DNA of 34,780 bases from Bacillota bacterium. Lineage in GTDB: Bacteria > Bacillota > Clostridia > Christensenellales > Borkfalkiaceae. The position numbers and the translations under genes are program-made. Below the pieces are notes generated by a model, which was not told where the DNA came from, ran no database searches, and saw only the letters and a program-made list of their open reading frames with translations. The number at the start of each line of letters is the position of its first letter. The first letter of the stretch is position 1. Shown here piece after piece: positions 14,063 through 29,416 of this stretch. Location of the stretch: positions 1-34,780 of the forward strand of contig QAKM01000045.1 of NCBI GenBank assembly GCA_003343805.1. Direction: 5' to 3'.

Positions 14063-15724
14063 TCAGCTGCGGTCGGAGAAATAGTTGTTGAGTGCCGAGA
14101 CGAGCGCGTACACCGAGGAACGGATGATGTCGCTGTTCTCGCCCGCGCCCCAATAGAGGCGGCCGTCCTTTTCGACGGCGACGTAGGAGAGCGCCTGCGC
14201 GAAGGAGCCCGACGCGAGCGCGTGCTGCTCGTAGCCCGTGAGGACGTAATCGATGCCGAAGTACTGCTTGAGGGCGTTTGAAACGGCGTCGAGGCGGCCG
14301 TTGCCCGTTGCGGTGACGGTAACGGCGTCCCTGCCGTCCTTCACTTCCACGATGGCGGTGATGCCGTTCTCCTGTTTATAGTGCACCTCGCCGAGATCGA
14401 AGCGGCCGCGCGCGCTCAGGAATCGATCGCAGAAGAGCTTGAACAGCTCCTGCGGCTTGAGCTCCTTGTGCTGCTCGTCCGAAACGTGCTTTGCAAGGGC
14501 GCTCATCGCCTCGCGCATCTTGGCGGGAAGTTTGATGTCGTAACACTGTTCGAGGACGTACCCCACACCGCCCTTGCCCGACTGCGAGTTGATGCGGATG
14601 ACGTCCGAATCGTAGATGCGGCCGACGTCATGCGGGTCGATGGGAAGATAGGGAACGTTCCAGATGCCGCCGCCGTGCTCGGCGCGCCAGTGCATCCCCT
14701 TGGCGATGGCGTCCTGATGGGAGCCGGAGAATGCCGCAAAGACGAGCTCGCCCGCATAGGGCTGACGGGGAGAGATCTTGAGCGTCGTGAACTGCTCGTA
14801 GGCGTCTGCGATCTCGGGCATATCGGAAAAATCCAGGCCGGGATCGACGCCCTGCGAGTACATATTCATGGCGAGGGTGACGACGTCGCAGTTGCCCGTG
14901 CGCTCGCCGTTGCCGAAGAGCGTGCCCTCGACGCGGTCGGCGCCCGCAAGGATGCCGAACTCCGCCGTCGCGACGCCCGTGCCGCGGTCGTTGTGGGGAT
15001 GAAGGGAGAGAACGACGTTCTCGCGGTACTTCATGTGCTTGTGGAGATACTCGATCTGCTGCGCGTAGACGTGCGGCATGGCGTTTTCCACCGTGGAGGG
15101 AAGGTTGATGATGGCCTTCCGGTCCGCCGTGGGCTGCCAGACATCGAGGACGGCGTTGACGACCTCGAGCGCGTACTCGGGCTCGGTGCCCGTGAAGCTC
15201 TCGGGCGAATACTCGAAGCGGTACTTCTCCCCCGCCTCCTCGGTGAGCTGCTTTAACAGTTTTGCCCCTTCGACGGCGATCTGCTTGATCTCCTCTTTGG
15301 ACTTTTTGAACACCTGCTCGCGCTGGGCGACGGAGGTCGAATTGTAGACGTGGACGATGACGTTCTTGGCACCCTTGACCGCCTCGAAGGTGCGGCGGAT
15401 GATGTGCTCGCGCGCCTGCGTCAGCACCTGGATGGTGACGTCATCGGGGATGAGATCCTTTTCGATGAGGGCGCGAAGGAAGGCATACTCCGTCTCGCTC
15501 GCGGCGGGGAAGCCCACCTCGATCTCCTTGAAGCCGACTCTGAGGAGCAGTTTGAAAAAGTCGAGCTTGGTCTCCAAAGACATGGGCTCAATGAGGGCCT
15601 GGTTGCCGTCGCGAAGATCGACGCTGCACCAGACGGGCGCCTGTTCGATCATGTCCTTTTCCGCCCAATCCATGCAGCGCTCGGGCGGCAGGATGAATTG
15701 TTTGCAATACTTGTTGCTCTCCAT
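14063..15724 (-). CDS. leuA: 2-isopropylmalate synthase
   Basis: LeuA makes 2-isopropylmalate from 2-oxoisovalerate and acetyl-CoA, the committed step of leucine synthesis. The 553-residue product is of the longer LeuA2 class. Visible are the DRE-TIM motif VDLRDGNQAL (35-44), the metal-binding LHPHNDRGTG, GNGERTGNCD, and a C-terminal regulatory domain (about 430-553) that in this family binds leucine. The ATG at 15724 has a strong GGAGGG upstream; an in-frame GTG 15 nt earlier overlaps the SD. The other leu genes are not in the window. Expression is under a T-box leader with a leucine specifier. Confidence 0.96.
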   Translation of the reverse strand: MESNKYCKQFILPPERCMDWAEKDMIEQAPVWCSVDLRDGNQALIEPMSLETKLDFFKLLLRVGFKEIEVGFPAASETEYAFLRALIEKDLIPDDVTIQVLTQAREHIIRRTFEAVKGAKNVIVHVYNSTSVAQREQVFKKSKEEIKQIAVEGAKLLKQLTEEAGEKYRFEYSPESFTGTEPEYALEVVNAVLDVWQPTADRKAIINLPSTVENAMPHVYAQQIEYLHKHMKYRENVVLSLHPHNDRGTGVATAEFGILAGADRVEGTLFGNGERTGNCDVVTLAMNMYSQGVDPGLDFSDMPEIADAYEQFTTLKISPRQPYAGELVFAAFSGSHQDAIAKGMHWRAEHGGGIWNVPYLPIDPHDVGRIYDSDVIRINSQSGKGGVGYVLEQCYDIKLPAKMREAMSALAKHVSDEQHKELKPQELFKLFCDRFLSARGRFDLGEVHYKQENGITAIVEVKDGRDAVTVTATGNGRLDAVSNALKQYFGIDYVLTGYEQHALASGSFAQALSYVAVEKDGRLYWGAGENSDIIRSSVYALVSALNNYFSDRS

Positions 15725-15746: not shown

Positions 15747-16000
15747 ATAAAATAAGACCGCGCCTCTTGACCAGGAAGAGACGCGGAACACGCGCGGTAC
15801 CACTCTTGTTGCGGGCAGACGCCCGCCGCTCACGGGATACGACCGTATCCCCTCCCGGTAACGGAGGGATCCGTTCTGCCTTACTCTGCTTCGGGCAGAC
15901 CGCTCGGCGGCGAGTTCACCCCTCCCCTCTGCCGCCTCGCACCGTCCGGCGGCTCTCTGAAAGCAGGAAAAAGGGGGTACTGCTCCGCGTCTTTGCGTTA
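15747..16000 (-). ncRNA. T-box leader, leucine-specific, upstream of leuA
   Basis: On the minus strand the leader contains the T-box motif AGAGTGGTACCGCG (15793-15806). The UGGU bulge would pair with a tRNA ending in ACCA, as tRNA-Leu does. Stem I has the family features AGAGAGC...GGTGCGAG and then GAACTCGCC, in which CUC (15912-15914) occupies the specifier position, a leucine codon. A terminator stem CCGCGTCTCTT/AAGAGGCGCGG followed by TCTTATTTT lies at about 15750-15787. Uncharged tRNA-Leu should stabilise the antiterminator and turn leuA on. Confidence 0.94.
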
Positions 16001-16010
16001 TATTTGTTCT

Positions 16011-20254: not shown

Positions 20255-20335
20255 GTGCTTTTGGGCGGGAAAGCATGAAAATTGCGTGTAGAGCGCCTTT
20301 TGCGGAAGAGCGCCCGCAGCGGGCCGACAAATACT

Positions 20336-20381
20336 CCCGCCCCGCAGTCAAAATTGCCCCCGCCCCGCAGTCAAAATTGCC
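20336..20381. repeat. Two perfect tandem 23-bp repeats
   Basis: The unit CCCGCCCCGCAGTCAAAATT plus GCC occurs at 20336-20358 and again directly at 20359-20381 without a mismatch, 23 bp upstream of the LRR gene's -35 box. Confidence 0.85.
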
Positions 20382-20404
20382 ACTAAAAATTTTTCATAAA
20401 GGGG

Positions 20405-20435
20405 TTGACACCCCCCCCCCGAAAAGTGGTATAAT
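20405..20435 (+). promoter_or_regulatory. Promoter of LRR lipoprotein gene with a poly-C spacer
   Basis: Perfect TTGACA (20405-20410) and perfect TATAAT (20430-20435) are separated by 19 bp, the first ten of which are all C (20411-20420). Loss of one or two Cs would bring the spacer to the optimal 18 or 17 bp. Confidence 0.85.
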
Positions 20436-20466
20436 ATAGACAGACAAATCGAACAGGGGGTATCGT

Positions 20467-21303
20467 ATGAAGAAAAAGATATGTTGTTTGTTGCTCGGAG
20501 GGCTTGTGCTCTCCTCCTGCGGGCTGATGGCGGCCTGCGAAAAGTCAGACCACGTCATCGACGGGATCGAGTACACCCGGATCCCGGAGGGGATCATGGC
20601 GATGATCGACGATCCCGCCATCACGCAGGCCTCTCCGCTGGCGGAATTTGACGGCGAACCCGTCGTCAAGGTCGATTTTTGGGACGGCACCGACCTGGAA
20701 GAACTGCATCTCCCCTCCTCGGTCAGAGAGCTTTCGATCAAAAACTGCCCCTCTCTCCGTCTTCTCGAGCTCAACGACGGTCTTTTGAAGCTCTCCTCCC
20801 TGAGCGGCCTTCCCGCACTCACCGAGCTCACCATCCCGGCAAGCGTCCGCAAGGTCGGCACGTTCTATAACAACGAAAACGGCACCGGCGGCCTCACCGT
20901 GTATTACGAGGGCTCGGTGGAGCAGATGATGAACATGGAATTTTCCGTGGTGGGAGGCTTTGGCTCCTGCAAGGCGCTGTATGTGGACGGCGAGCTGTTT
21001 ACCGATCCCGTCGTGCCGGACGGAGTCAGCGCCATCCCCGCCTTTATCTTCACCAACATGATGCAGCTCAAGTCGATCACCCTACCCTCCTCGGTAACGA
21101 ACATCGGCGAAGAGGCCTTCTCGGGCTGCCGCGCCCTCAGCGATATCTACTATCAGAGCACGACGTTGAATTGGGATATGATCGGCAAGGGCCATGCGTG
21201 GAATTCCAACAACCTTCCGGGCGAGGAACGCGGCCTGCTCTCCTTCACCGTGCACTGCACCGACGGAGACATCGAGTACGGCCCCGTCCTTCCGCAGGAA
21301 TGA
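20467..21303 (+). CDS. Surface lipoprotein with BspA-type leucine-rich repeats
   Basis: The 278-residue product begins with a lipoprotein signal (MKKKICCLLLGGLVLSSC, likely lipid-modified Cys18; Cys24 is an alternative). The body has BspA/LRR_5-like units: DLEELHLPSSVRELSIKNC, LRLLELNDG, ALTELTIPASVRKVGTF and LKSITLPSSVTNIGEEAF. Such proteins are usually exposed on the cell surface and bind host or neighbouring-cell molecules; the ligand here is unknown. The ATG at 20467 has AGGGGG 6 nt upstream. Its promoter has a 10-C tract in the spacer, so expression may be phase variable. It is convergent to rplL. Confidence 0.88.
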   Translation: MKKKICCLLLGGLVLSSCGLMAACEKSDHVIDGIEYTRIPEGIMAMIDDPAITQASPLAEFDGEPVVKVDFWDGTDLEELHLPSSVRELSIKNCPSLRLLELNDGLLKLSSLSGLPALTELTIPASVRKVGTFYNNENGTGGLTVYYEGSVEQMMNMEFSVVGGFGSCKALYVDGELFTDPVVPDGVSAIPAFIFTNMMQLKSITLPSSVTNIGEEAFSGCRALSDIYYQSTTLNWDMIGKGHAWNSNNLPGEERGLLSFTVHCTDGDIEYGPVLPQE

Positions 21304-21315
21304 CCGCATCAAACC

Positions 21316-21342
21316 GCGGCGCCGCCCGACGGGCGGCGCCGC
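21316..21342 (+). terminator. Hairpin after LRR lipoprotein gene
   Basis: Strong stem GGCGCCGCCC/GGGCGGCGCC (21318-21327 with 21331-21340) soon after the stop codon; its T-tract is weak, so the next hairpin may finish termination. Confidence 0.65.
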
Positions 21343-21360
21343 CTGCATCCTTTCAGGCAG

Positions 21361-21397
21361 CAAAAAACCGCCTCCCGACGGGGAGACGGCTTTTCTT
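21361..21397. terminator. Terminator of rplJ-rplL, probably bidirectional
   Basis: A stem CCGCCTCCC/GGGAGACGG (21368-21376 with 21381-21389, one G-U pair on the minus strand) is followed on the minus strand by GGTTTTTTGC and on the plus strand by CTTTTCTTTTG. Confidence 0.85.
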
Positions 21398-22303: not shown

Positions 22304-22373
22304 GTTTACCTCCTTGGGACGCTTGCGCGCCCGTTCTCCGCTTCCCCCGCCCGTGCAAAAGCGGGAAAAGCCA

Positions 22374-22485
22374 CAAAAAAGCGCTCCGTACCGCAGGGGA
22401 CGAAGCGCATGGAAAGCCATTGCTCATTCGTTACCTCGACGGGATATTGAGCCAACCATGGGGCACCCGTTGTCTGCGGTATCGA
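22374..22485 (-). ncRNA. Ribosomal protein L10 leader with attenuator
   Basis: The minus-strand leader has the family core AGACAACGGGTGCCC...ATATCCCGTCGAGGTAACGA. Segment TACCGCAG (22474-22481) can pair with CTGCGGTA (22389-22396), closing the leader structure. The second segment also lies inside an alternative terminator hairpin (9-bp stem, 22381-22409) followed by TTTTTT (22375-22380). The two folds exclude each other, which suggests attenuation controlled by L10-L12 binding. Confidence 0.88.
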
Positions 22486-22497
22486 TCTTACTTTGCT

Positions 22498-25510: not shown

Positions 25511-28500
25511 TTACTTCGTAAACGTACCTACCCATGCAGCAATGTTATCGAGCCAATAAGGATTACCCGTAATGCTTGCGGTAAGAGCGGAAGTCGTGTA
25601 CCCGGAAATCGTATCAATCGTGGTGTAAACATCACCGTCCGTATTCGTCAAAGTTTGATAGATCATTAACGTCGATCCGTCTCTGACAACGTAAACAGTA
25701 TATTCACCGCCATAATTGGTTTCTGCGGCGCCCTGCACAGGGAAGTCAGAAGCCTCAGCCGCTTCACCGTTGATATAGCGTTCCGAAGTGACCTCAAAAG
25801 CTGCTAATGCGTCACCGGGATTTGTCCAAGCATTGCACTGCAGGAAGTTAAGATCCAGAGCAACATTTTCGCTATCGATGAACTCAATGACAGCATCCTG
25901 CGCCCATGTTACATCTCTCACGTTATCCCAAGTGTACATGATCGCAAAATCGCCCTCGACAACGAACGTAGACGTTCCGCCCGTCCACCAATCACCAGAG
26001 GTGTCGTTGTTCGTGATATTAATCGTTTCAACGTTAATGGTATAACCATCACCGACTGCAACATCCGTCGTCTGCGAAACAGTACCGATGTTGACCGTGA
26101 TATCGGCAAGCCAATAAACGTTACCGCCGATCTCGGAAACAAGATTAGCCTTCGTGAAGTTGGTAACGGTGAGAACGGATGTCCAAACATCACCGTTGGA
26201 AGCCGTAACGGTTTCGGTCACAGTAAGGTTCGTGCCAAGTCTCACAGCCGTAACTTCAAACTTACCATCGAGCCAGTAAGGAGCGGCTTCCGCCGTAGCG
26301 TCTGCAAACGACGAAGCTTCGCCGTTCTTATAAACGTTGTAGGTAACCACGGAATCTGCAGCCCAAAGAGCACTGTTATCGACAGAATCGATCGCAGACC
26401 AGCCTTCATTGGTCGCAGGCTCAAGGAAACGCTTGAACAAGCCGTTAGGCGTCGTACCCTCTTCATAATCAGCCTGCGTGAGGACGATCGCACCGTCCGC
26501 CACATAATTCTGATCGGTATTGGTCCAGGTGTACTTAACGGCGAAATCACCGGAAAGTTCTTTTGCACCAACTCTGGTCGACCACCAGCCGTTCGGATCG
26601 GTCGCGGTATTGCGAATGCTTTCCGAAACATTAGGCGTCAGGAGAACGACTTCATAGAAGGAGTTCTCATCGATCTCAAAGATCTCGCTCGACGCGCCGC
26701 AGACAGAGCAGGTAGCCTTGTTGTCTACATACTCGCCAAATTCATGTGCGCCGCTTGCAGGAGTGATGACAGCACCATACTTGAAGCCCGTCGTCTCATC
26801 GACATAAGCCTCGATACCATCGGTCACGCAGCTCCAAACCTGCGTCTCGGTACGCTCACCTGCAGGAGTGACCTCTGCGGAAGTGATCTCGTCGCCCGTC
26901 ACGGTGAACACCGTGTAGGTATCCTGACCGTTTTCGGTATCTTCGTTTGCGGTGAAGTAATAGGTCTGAGCGACATCTTCCGTTCTGAGACCGAGCGTCG
27001 TAACGGAGAGCTCGAGCATAAGGAGCGCGCCGTAGTCGTAATCGCTTGCATCGCCGACATTGCCGAGAGCAACAAGCTTGCCCTTCGTACCGAGGTCAGA
27101 CGTAATGTCATTCGACGCAACTGCAGAAACAACGCTCGTTGCAGTCGTTGCATCGTAAGCCGACGAAACAGAAAGGTCATAGGACAGACCGAGCTCATTC
27201 TGAATATTCAACGTGACGTTGAAAACAAGGTCTGCATACTCGAGCTTGCCTTCGACTTCCTCTGCGGAGAACGCCTTCATGACGAACATCTTGTCGCGTG
27301 CGACATAGACGTACACGTCGTCGGAGACCTTCGCAACGTTGCCGCCCTGCTCGGGTGCATCGCTGAATACCATGTTGTAGTGGAGCGTGACTTCTGCAAG
27401 CGTCTCGCCATCGGCATTACGGATGCCCACAAGACGATTTGCGTTCGTTGCGGAAAGGTTTGCAAGGTTGGGCTTCGCGATCTCGTAAACGACCGTCAGG
27501 CCCTCTTCGCCTTCCTCGACGGAGTTGATATAGAGCTGGTTTGCAAGTGCGGTGTACTTGCCGTCTGCCGTGATGGCTGCCTTGACATCGGCCACGGTGC
27601 TGCGCATACCGCCCGTGACGAGCGTGTAGTCGTCTGCGCCGGCAGGGATGCCCGTGTAGACCACGGTATAGGTGCCGCCTGCATCGAGCGTGAAGTCAGA
27701 ACCTGCGACATAGACGCTGACTTCGGGAGCCTTCTCGACGTCGGAAACGTCGATCGAAACGGTCTGGACCGTTGCATCGCCCTTCTTGAGGGTGAGGGTG
27801 ACGGTCGTCGTGCTGTCCGTAACGGGAAGGACAACGGAGATGACGCCGTTTGCAAGCGAAGCATAGCCTTCGGAGATCTCGACTGCGTCGAAGTCTGCGG
27901 AAAGGTTGCCGAGCTTGAGGGAAACGAAGTTGGATGCCTCGGTGTCGAGCGCGGCCTTCTGGTCTGCCGTGAGGACGGCTGCCTTGCCTGCGCCGACGAC
28001 ATCGATGCCGTCGCCTGCTGCGTTGACTGCATAGTCGAACGTAGCGTCGGGAGCGTCGAACGTGTAGCCGTTCGCAACGACTGCGGCGCCCGCAGCGGTC
28101 GTGAACTCGGAGGGAACGACCGTGATGAGGTCCTCACCGTCGATCGTGTTGTCGCTCGTGAAGAAGTAGGTCTTGCCTGCGAACTCGAGGTTGAAGGCGT
28201 ACATCTCTGCCGTCAGAGGCTCGCTCGCAAGGTTGACTCTCGTCTGCGTCGTGGTGCCGTCCTCGTTGGCGACATCGACGTACGCATACGCATTGTAGGA
28301 GTTGAGGACGGGATCGCCCGCGCTCATCTCTGCCGTAGCCTGGATGCCCGTCGTATCGAACATCTTGCCTTCAGCCTGCTCGGTCGCCGTGGGAAGCTCT
28401 GCCGTGAAGTCCGTGACATAGCGGTTCTGCACGCTCTCGATCGCGGTGACCTGATAGGTGACCTTCTCACCGTAAGCGACGATCTCGTACGATGCGTCGG

Positions 28501-29416
28501 GGACCGCGAAGGTATAGGTGAGGGTCATCGTGGAGTTGTCGGCCTTGGTGAGGGTGTGACGGATGGTCATGATGCCGTCCATGCCGTAGTTGTAGAAGAT
28601 GACGTCGGTACCGCCGACGAGATCGGCAGCCGTCCACGTCGAACCGCTCGAATAGACGACCCACTCGCCGGATTCTGCCGTCGCCGTACCGATGCCGGCA
28701 ACTGCTGCGTCCTTCGTGCCGCCGTCGGGCGTCGTGAAGCCCGCGACCGTACCGATGACGTAGTTGTCCTCACGGGGAAGGATACCGACCGCACCGTTGC
28801 GGACGCCCATCAGAGGAGTGTTCCAGGTAGCGCCCGTATCGACCTCGAGGATCTTGAGGGTGAGCTCCATCGACTGACCTGCGACGAGCACGCCGTAGCT
28901 GACGTGGTTCTCGCCTGCGCGGGGAGCCGTTGCGGGAGAGTTCTCCGACTTCTCGGTCAGCGTGGCCTGATTGCCCCAGGCAACCGTCGTGACGGTATCG
29001 GTAAGTCCCGAAAGCGACGTGCGGGATGCGCCGCAGTCGCACGAGAACGTGCCGTCGCCGTTATCCTGCCAGTTGTGCTCGACCGTGACGAGGTACGTCA
29101 TCGTAACGGGCTGAGCGCCTTCCGCGGGTTCCTGCTCGGGCGTGATGACGATGCTGTATTCATCCGCCTGATTGGGATTATAGGCCGAAGAGTCGACCTC
29201 GTATTGGTCCGCCTCGAGGACGACGGGCTCGTCCGACCCACGGTAGTACACCGTAACCGTGAGATCGCCGGTCGAGAACGCTTCGCCTTCGACGAACGAC
29301 GTTTTCTGTCCTTCGAGCTGGATCTCGGTCACTTCTTTCCCGCCGCCGCAGGCAACGAGGAAGAGCGAGAAGGTCAGCGCAAAGAGCAGACTCAAAGCTA
29401 TTTTCAGCTTCTTCAT
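25511..29416 (-). CDS. Large surface lipoprotein with Ig-like and repeated C-terminal domains
   Basis: The 1301-residue product has a lipoprotein signal (lipobox LVAC, Cys23, then GGG). Residues about 29-115 resemble a bacterial Ig-like domain (TEIQLEGQKTSFVEGEAF...YSIVITPE). Two short Cys motifs, FSCDCGAS (about 126) and ATCSVCGAS (near 900), recall the zinc-ribbon-like units seen in many Clostridial surface proteins. The C-terminal 380 residues hold two related units of about 155 residues, each beginning GxWWxxG/R and GDFA(V/I)xYTW and ending (N/G)xxYWLxxI, perhaps carbohydrate-binding. Base composition falls over 25511-26740 compared with the rest of the gene. GGGGGA precedes the ATG. The target molecule is unknown. 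Confidence 0.85.
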   Translation of the reverse strand: MKKLKIALSLLFALTFSLFLVACGGGKEVTEIQLEGQKTSFVEGEAFSTGDLTVTVYYRGSDEPVVLEADQYEVDSSAYNPNQADEYSIVITPEQEPAEGAQPVTMTYLVTVEHNWQDNGDGTFSCDCGASRTSLSGLTDTVTTVAWGNQATLTEKSENSPATAPRAGENHVSYGVLVAGQSMELTLKILEVDTGATWNTPLMGVRNGAVGILPREDNYVIGTVAGFTTPDGGTKDAAVAGIGTATAESGEWVVYSSGSTWTAADLVGGTDVIFYNYGMDGIMTIRHTLTKADNSTMTLTYTFAVPDASYEIVAYGEKVTYQVTAIESVQNRYVTDFTAELPTATEQAEGKMFDTTGIQATAEMSAGDPVLNSYNAYAYVDVANEDGTTTQTRVNLASEPLTAEMYAFNLEFAGKTYFFTSDNTIDGEDLITVVPSEFTTAAGAAVVANGYTFDAPDATFDYAVNAAGDGIDVVGAGKAAVLTADQKAALDTEASNFVSLKLGNLSADFDAVEISEGYASLANGVISVVLPVTDSTTTVTLTLKKGDATVQTVSIDVSDVEKAPEVSVYVAGSDFTLDAGGTYTVVYTGIPAGADDYTLVTGGMRSTVADVKAAITADGKYTALANQLYINSVEEGEEGLTVVYEIAKPNLANLSATNANRLVGIRNADGETLAEVTLHYNMVFSDAPEQGGNVAKVSDDVYVYVARDKMFVMKAFSAEEVEGKLEYADLVFNVTLNIQNELGLSYDLSVSSAYDATTATSVVSAVASNDITSDLGTKGKLVALGNVGDASDYDYGALLMLELSVTTLGLRTEDVAQTYYFTANEDTENGQDTYTVFTVTGDEITSAEVTPAGERTETQVWSCVTDGIEAYVDETTGFKYGAVITPASGAHEFGEYVDNKATCSVCGASSEIFEIDENSFYEVVLLTPNVSESIRNTATDPNGWWSTRVGAKELSGDFAVKYTWTNTDQNYVADGAIVLTQADYEEGTTPNGLFKRFLEPATNEGWSAIDSVDNSALWAADSVVTYNVYKNGEASSFADATAEAAPYWLDGKFEVTAVRLGTNLTVTETVTASNGDVWTSVLTVTNFTKANLVSEIGGNVYWLADITVNIGTVSQTTDVAVGDGYTINVETINITNNDTSGDWWTGGTSTFVVEGDFAIMYTWDNVRDVTWAQDAVIEFIDSENVALDLNFLQCNAWTNPGDALAAFEVTSERYINGEAAEASDFPVQGAAETNYGGEYTVYVVRDGSTLMIYQTLTNTDGDVYTTIDTISGYTTSALTASITGNPYWLDNIAAWVGTFTK

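Follow-up and report, generated by a model that had tools for sequence, protein, structure and literature searches.

A run of ten C residues that lies between the -35 and -10 hexamers of a sigma-A-type promoter, found in an uncultured gut bacterium of the Clostridia, is probably a contingency tract, through which random slippage would drive transcription of the following lipoprotein gene up or down. The DNA analyzed, called the window below, is the whole stretch of 34,780 nucleotides at positions 1 to 34,780 of contig QAKM01000045.1 (assembly GCA_003343805.1). The family to which it belongs is named Borkfalkiaceae. The elements of the promoter and its gene are given in Table 1.

Table 1. Promoter elements and gene at the C10 locus, numbered from the first nucleotide of the window
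Feature	Position	Strand	Basis
-35 hexamer TTGACA, perfect	20405..20410	+	read from sequence
C10 homopolymer, presumed slipping tract	20411..20420	+	sequence read and run count in the window
Extended -10, TGG-TATAAT	20427..20435	+	sequence
Likely ribosome-binding site AGGGGG, with ATG 6 nt further	20455..20460	+	sequence
Predicted lipoprotein, 278 aa, lipobox ...LMAAC, BspA-type LRR stretch	20467..21303	+	sequence and Pfam

The stretch GAAAAGTGG (20421-20429) bridges the C10 tract and TATAAT (20430-20435), and the spacer between -35 and -10 is 19 nucleotides long. The original prediction, which described perfect TTGACA and TATAAT hexamers separated by 19 bp of which the first ten are C, is exact in the sequence; it did not include the TG at 20427-20428, part of the motif generally named the extended -10. 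A leader of 31 nucleotides separates TATAAT from the ATG (20467). Within the whole window, the perfect arrangement TTGACA-19-TATAAT has a single match, and the mean count in 100 shuffled versions was 0.35 even when two mismatches were tolerated. The prediction had also noticed no second long C or G run in a promoter of the window, and this holds for the window at large: the C10 tract is its sole C or G run of seven or more, the expected number of run starts under a first-order model of the window being 0.06 for C10 and 0.02 for G10. Directly 5' of the promoter (20329-20374), a 23-nt unit is found twice in tandem, the two copies being 87% alike.

Ordinary promoters of the clade are spaced differently. 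A general promoter scan omits the C10 promoter because it admits spacers of 16 to 18 only; between positions 15000 and 34780, all five sites that it found with at least 10 of 12 matches have a spacer of 17. Promoter-like sites, taken as TTGACN plus a -10 with at most one mismatch, numbered 311 in the window and 80 related loci located through rplJ, and 255 of them have the 17-nt spacer; a C or G run of six or more occurs in the spacer only at the C10 promoter. Perfect-hexamer promoters without a C or G run of six show the same preference (17 nt in 68 of 83). This ordinary spacing of 17 may well also be the functional optimum in the clade, and with a spacer of 19 in the window, indels of one or two bases would move the promoter across it.

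The 278-residue product starts MKKKICCLLLGGLVLSSCGLMAAC, which contains the lipobox, and matches PF13306 (LRR_5) with 50 bits against a curated cut-off of 27.7, the best stretch being residues 179-232. The gene thus answers to the lipoprotein with BspA-type LRR that had been predicted, and a location at the cell surface would be compatible with the lipobox and the LRR_5 match. The same two features, LRR_5 above the Pfam cut-off plus a lipobox, make up its likeness to BspA-type LRR proteins (PF13306), from which it differs in passing with a short LRR stretch only. The representative of a 90% protein cluster with 178 member sequences is 99% identical to it. The next relatives, at 62% and 50% identity, are the only two outside this near-identical cluster that reach 50% over most of the length among the 120 relatives listed. 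Two overlapping samples, of 301 genomes from the family and 101 from the genus, yielded no ortholog, only distant LRR hits of which the best had 69 bits; a search of genome contigs for relatives of the lipoprotein confirmed none.

Kin of the window, which comes from a relative of Candidatus Gallimonas, were located through rplJ. The RplJ of the window matches its counterpart in an uncultured Clostridia metagenome-assembled genome (L001) at 100% identity, and those of two named Candidatus Gallimonas (L009, L060) at 82% and 79%; a search for rplJ in viral contigs found none. In L001 and two further congeners (L002, L003), the three with a readable junction, the neighbouring genes align with 78-91% nucleotide identity in long pieces, but the interval from the cyclophilin-domain gene to rplL contains neither the lipoprotein gene nor its promoter (window junction 20289-21362). 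The gene is therefore accessory, and with its promoter it looks like an insertion beside rplL. Elsewhere in the window, Rfam places an ordinary T-box leader 5' of the isopropylmalate synthase gene (15774-16002) and an ordinary L10 leader 5' of rplJ (22366-22497), and the minus strand carries an ORF of 1301 aa without a Pfam match at E 0.01 (25511-29416).

The design is found repeatedly in related genomes. In the family of the L001 genome, the pattern TTGACA..C8+..TATAAT occurs at 20 places in 17 of 398 genomes, and TTGACA..G8+..TATAMT at no fewer than 148 places in 63 of 201, with the reversed patterns giving 0 matches in both searches. A sample of the order gave 10 C8+ places in 8 of 297 genomes (control 0). 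In a class-wide sample, G8+ was found in 3 of 196 genomes (control 1), the three including G001, which is the family centre, and G486, which is also in the order sample. With 63 of 201 genomes in the family against 3 of 196 in the class, the design is therefore mainly a property of the clade. Each species is represented in these comparisons by a single consensus assembly, and the separate searches drew on overlapping samples.

Lipoprotein genes are over-represented behind these promoters. A lipobox, called by heuristics of our own in two versions, was present in 90 of 164 proteins behind homopolymer promoters and in 16 of 62 behind ordinary promoters of the rplJ loci (Fisher 9e-5); with duplicates removed by the first 12 residues, the former count is 85 of 156, and for ordinary promoters over all loci it is 20 of 82. 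The first version of the test gave 78 of 164 against 15 of 82. A called ORF was required, which 164 of 170 homopolymer promoters and 82 of 90 ordinary ones had, the 170 including a few that appear twice on account of an additional -10 or -35. Further products are membrane proteins, ABC-transporter ATPases, camelysin-like (M73) proteins and InlB-repeat proteins; a Pfam scan of ten downstream proteins left five without a match. For one membrane-protein family behind a tract promoter (L341, L262), a resemblance by eye to signal peptidase I was dropped after Pfam returned no hit at 0.001. One genome, G144, carries 18 near-identical, dispersed promoters with a G8 tract in a spacer of 15, and the three of these loci that were fetched (L240-L242) all encode predicted lipoproteins, two of which share one signal peptide.

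The spacers of the tract promoters avoid the ordinary length. A 17-nt spacer was found in 8 of 130 G-tract promoters when the 18 G144 copies, all of spacer 15, are set aside (8 of 148 with them). The spacers scatter mostly over 15 to 20 with a dip at 17: in the set of 130 there are 24 at 15, 21 at 16, 8 at 17, 22 at 18, 25 at 19 and 11 at 20, the remainder being shorter or longer within a full spread of 13 to 25 nt. The 30 C-tract promoters number 3, 12, 5, 2, 5 and 3 at spacers 15 to 20. When 143 promoters were clustered by their flanks into 125 clusters, about 23, 28, 14, 25 and 29 fell at spacers 15 to 19, both this clustering and the promoter-pair counts below being confined to spacers up to 19. 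Three larger sets, which overlap one another, give the dip at 17 binomial p values of 0.004, 0.005 and 0.018 against the neighbouring lengths 16 and 18. It is not significant (p 0.25) in the smaller set from a search with runs from five up in 61 genus genomes, for which the 141 matches listed, from 31 of the 61, were used, nine listed G144 rows being excluded.

In that smaller set, runs of 5-6 go with a spacer of 17 in 47 of 77 promoters, and runs of at least 8 do so in 5 of 59 (Fisher 1e-10). Its run lengths from 5 to 11 were counted 67, 10, 5, 12, 36, 10 and 1 times, a distribution that may be read as the tail of chance runs plus a distinct class at nine. The part of the G-tract spacer outside the tract is seldom 8 nt (12 of 148), between 7 (45, including the 18 G144 copies) and 9 (27), which is the pattern expected if the combination of nine and eight is disfavoured. 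The dip at 17 suggests a majority state that, as a rule, differs from the optimal one.

Differences of a single base were found at some tracts. One homologous promoter in three related species has G9 (spacer 17) in G001, G8 (16) in G002 and G10 (18) in G003; between G001 and G002, whose downstream proteins are 96% identical (36% for G001 and G003), one G is the sole difference from -35 to -10. The other two promoter pairs of G001 and G002 differ by one A deletion and by one substitution, so that a G difference is seen in one of three pairs. Two promoters one G apart also occur within single genomes, in G159 with upstream flanks identical at 55 of 60 positions, and in G486 with flanks identical at 59 of 60 upstream and 85 of 91 downstream. 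A pair of the same kind in G041 was discarded as evidence, the flanks being unlike. Among 21 promoter pairs with alike flanks, run length is equal in 18 and spacer in 15. Five copies in G046 share one G9 spacer length, and the 18 G144 copies are all G8, with one G7 copy in the search with runs from five up. Single-base changes thus occur, with equal lengths as the rule, and the 18 of 21 equal run lengths are evidence against fast slippage.

This constancy is what would be expected of a fixed promoter element with little slippage, read by a regulator or through DNA shape (the A-like form of poly-G/poly-C) and marking a regulated class of envelope genes. The idea is rather unlikely, although it draws on the common run length of the pairs and of the G144 copies, and on a regularity of the tracts themselves: in a sample taken regardless of promoters (L126-L155, L344-L401), 71 of 88 tracts of nine or more are exactly nine, and a G tract of this kind is followed by T in 76 of 87 cases. 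A fixed geometry, however, is not compatible with spacers spread over 13-25 nt, and the tract is found in both orientations and at many different distances from the -10. The single-G differences at homologous or duplicated promoters also speak against it, as does the promoter of an ABC-transporter ATPase gene, which has orthologs in 85 of 103 genus genomes: 30 of these loci were fetched (L304-L333), and a G run of eight or more precedes the gene in only 7 of the 27 readable ones (L309, L311, L316, L319, L321, L326, L331), L309 being counted though it has no clear -35. The tract has therefore been gained or lost at orthologous promoters. Hypermutability through loss of mutS was considered as a cause of the tracts and found unsupported, as 48 of 51 genus genomes contain MutS_I; with no hint that mismatch repair has been lost, this counts against the slippage reading.

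Similar tracts also lie inside genes, a further point against the fixed element. When the first-listed C9/G9 tract of each of 30 genomes was examined, 16 stood between promoter-like hexamers (L152 among them, which matches poorly and has a spacer of 24 nt), against 3 and 0 with two control hexamer pairs. Another 58 tracts of nine or more, namely those listed for eight genomes minus one whose region was common with another tract, gave 23 between promoter-like hexamers, and 100 permuted pairs a mean of 0.97 and a maximum of 11. By a crude test, 26 of the remaining 49 tracts sit within a reading frame that stays open across them, 5 within a frame that is broken, and 18 in other places. In the neighbourhoods of rplJ (80 loci), none of 21 tracts of eight or more is within a recognisable promoter, a point against the slippage reading. 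At one locus (L380; G322 contig 37, near 15619), a lipobox-like LAAC is directly followed by G9 and a stop a few codons on, and another frame is open for 60 or more codons; this looks like translational phase variation of a putative lipoprotein. At another (L045 near 12839), the contig ends within TTGACA plus 17 G, as if the assembly had broken at a variable tract.

After runs of 3-6 G, the next base is T in 16-25%, and the preference of the long tracts for T is also seen outside promoters (37 of 45). It is absent in the rplJ loci (8 of 20 for runs of 8-10). The tract of the window, read as G10 on the opposite strand, runs into a T, which is the A of TTGACA. No extended motif was found around the tracts apart from one base on each side and a weak A at +2. 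The G9-T regularity hints that a specific process, beyond free slippage, may make or maintain the tracts.

A functionless chance run in a GC-rich intergenic stretch, next to hexamers that are themselves accidental, is very improbable. C7 matches as a class are indeed not over-represented in the window (4 found, 4.98 expected), but at the C10 locus both hexamers are perfect and the -10 is extended, with the ribosome-binding site and the start codon in their proper order, and the same design recurs at more than 100 places, with 0 control matches and an excess of lipoprotein genes behind it. Least credible of all is that poly-G and poly-C are artefacts of sequencing chemistry or of the assembler, for although some very long runs are at contig ends (L134, L154, L045) and the relatives are metagenome-assembled genomes, the tracts lie between -35 and -10, many of them well within contigs and in numerous assemblies, and several species have them at homologous sites.

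Phase variation by slippage in the spacer is what we infer, from sequence comparison, as the best reading of the window locus. The proposal had been made in the original prediction, and it gains support at the sequence level from the recurrence of the design in the family, its rarity in the class, the lipoprotein genes and the spacers off 17. Strand slippage during replication would add or remove C's in the C10 tract, the distance from -35 to -10 would range over roughly 17-20 nt, and the lipoprotein gene would be transcribed more in some cells and less in others, at random. The assembled C10 state is probably low, because its spacer of 19 is two above the usual 17 of the clade; C9 or C8 would then give medium or high expression. 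As a counterpoint, some promoter activity could persist whatever the spacing, owing to the extended -10.

The recurrence of the design, the scatter of the spacers, the class of genes and the single-G differences would all be explained by tract slippage that moves the spacer around 17-18 nt. Many kindred promoters in the family, more commonly with G tracts of about nine, would likewise serve lipoproteins and other cell-envelope genes, with flanks mostly such that a nine-base tract misses 17 nt. Slipped tracts that revert towards nine would account for the equal lengths. Slippage would be the cause, transcription would respond to it, the resting state would be biased towards OFF, and variation of the surface would be the benefit. 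It is conceivable, if somewhat doubtful, that the family as a whole keeps a stochastic envelope repertoire with OFF as the default, in which tracts of about nine G or C lie in spacers whose other part is tuned so that the 17-nt optimum is missed, one or two slips switch one lipoprotein ON in a small number of cells, and the process that makes or maintains the tracts is the specific one hinted at by G9-T.

FetA is a surface protein; the spacer tract of porA is poly-G; and the C-stretch of the fim type occupies the place of the normal -35, between the activator site and the -10. In Neisseria gonorrhoeae fetA (frpB), a poly-C tract between -10 and -35 is described whose length varies by strain and alters expression (PMC5320596). 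For the promoter tracts of Neisseria meningitidis opc (poly-cytidine) and porA, variation of the -10/-35 spacing is reported to change expression (van der Ende 1995, Sarkari 1994, cited in PMC5084427). The C10 run between perfect hexamers is likewise a homopolymer between -35 and -10. The comparison drawn at the outset was with porA; the closest published parallels are instead the fetA and opc promoters with their poly-C tracts. The likeness to fetA is the C homopolymer in the promoter spacer, and the difference is that the window bacterium belongs to another phylum; porA and opc are single loci in a Gram-negative pathogen, whereas here many loci are found in uncultured gut Clostridia.

In the promoters of the Bordetella fimbrial genes fim2, fim3 and fimX, the length of a C homopolymer affects transcription, and in the model given there the C-stretch sets the distance from the activator-binding region to the -10 (PMC1891110). 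The window differs from this arrangement in that its perfect -35 abuts the C10 directly. The phasome of Campylobacter jejuni is reported to comprise 29 poly-G/poly-C loci of seven or more, with G8 to G12 measured, and 23 of the 29 tracts are in the main part of reading frames (PMC4965091). Many G/C tracts per genome are common to both; in the present sample, 39 of 88 tracts of nine or more lie between promoter-like hexamers.

A 2025 review treats it as a major question that genomes rich in phase-variable loci seem to be confined to pathogens (PMC11868660), and a candidate phasome in uncultured gut Clostridia speaks to it. No report of such a system in gut Clostridia is among the literature matches listed, a scope outside which preprints and most subscription papers fall. 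The dip at 17 nt hints from sequence alone which loci rest off, and the idea is therefore testable on existing metagenome reads. If it is true, individual cells of gut commensals would differ in their lipoproteins, with implications for immune recognition and phage resistance.
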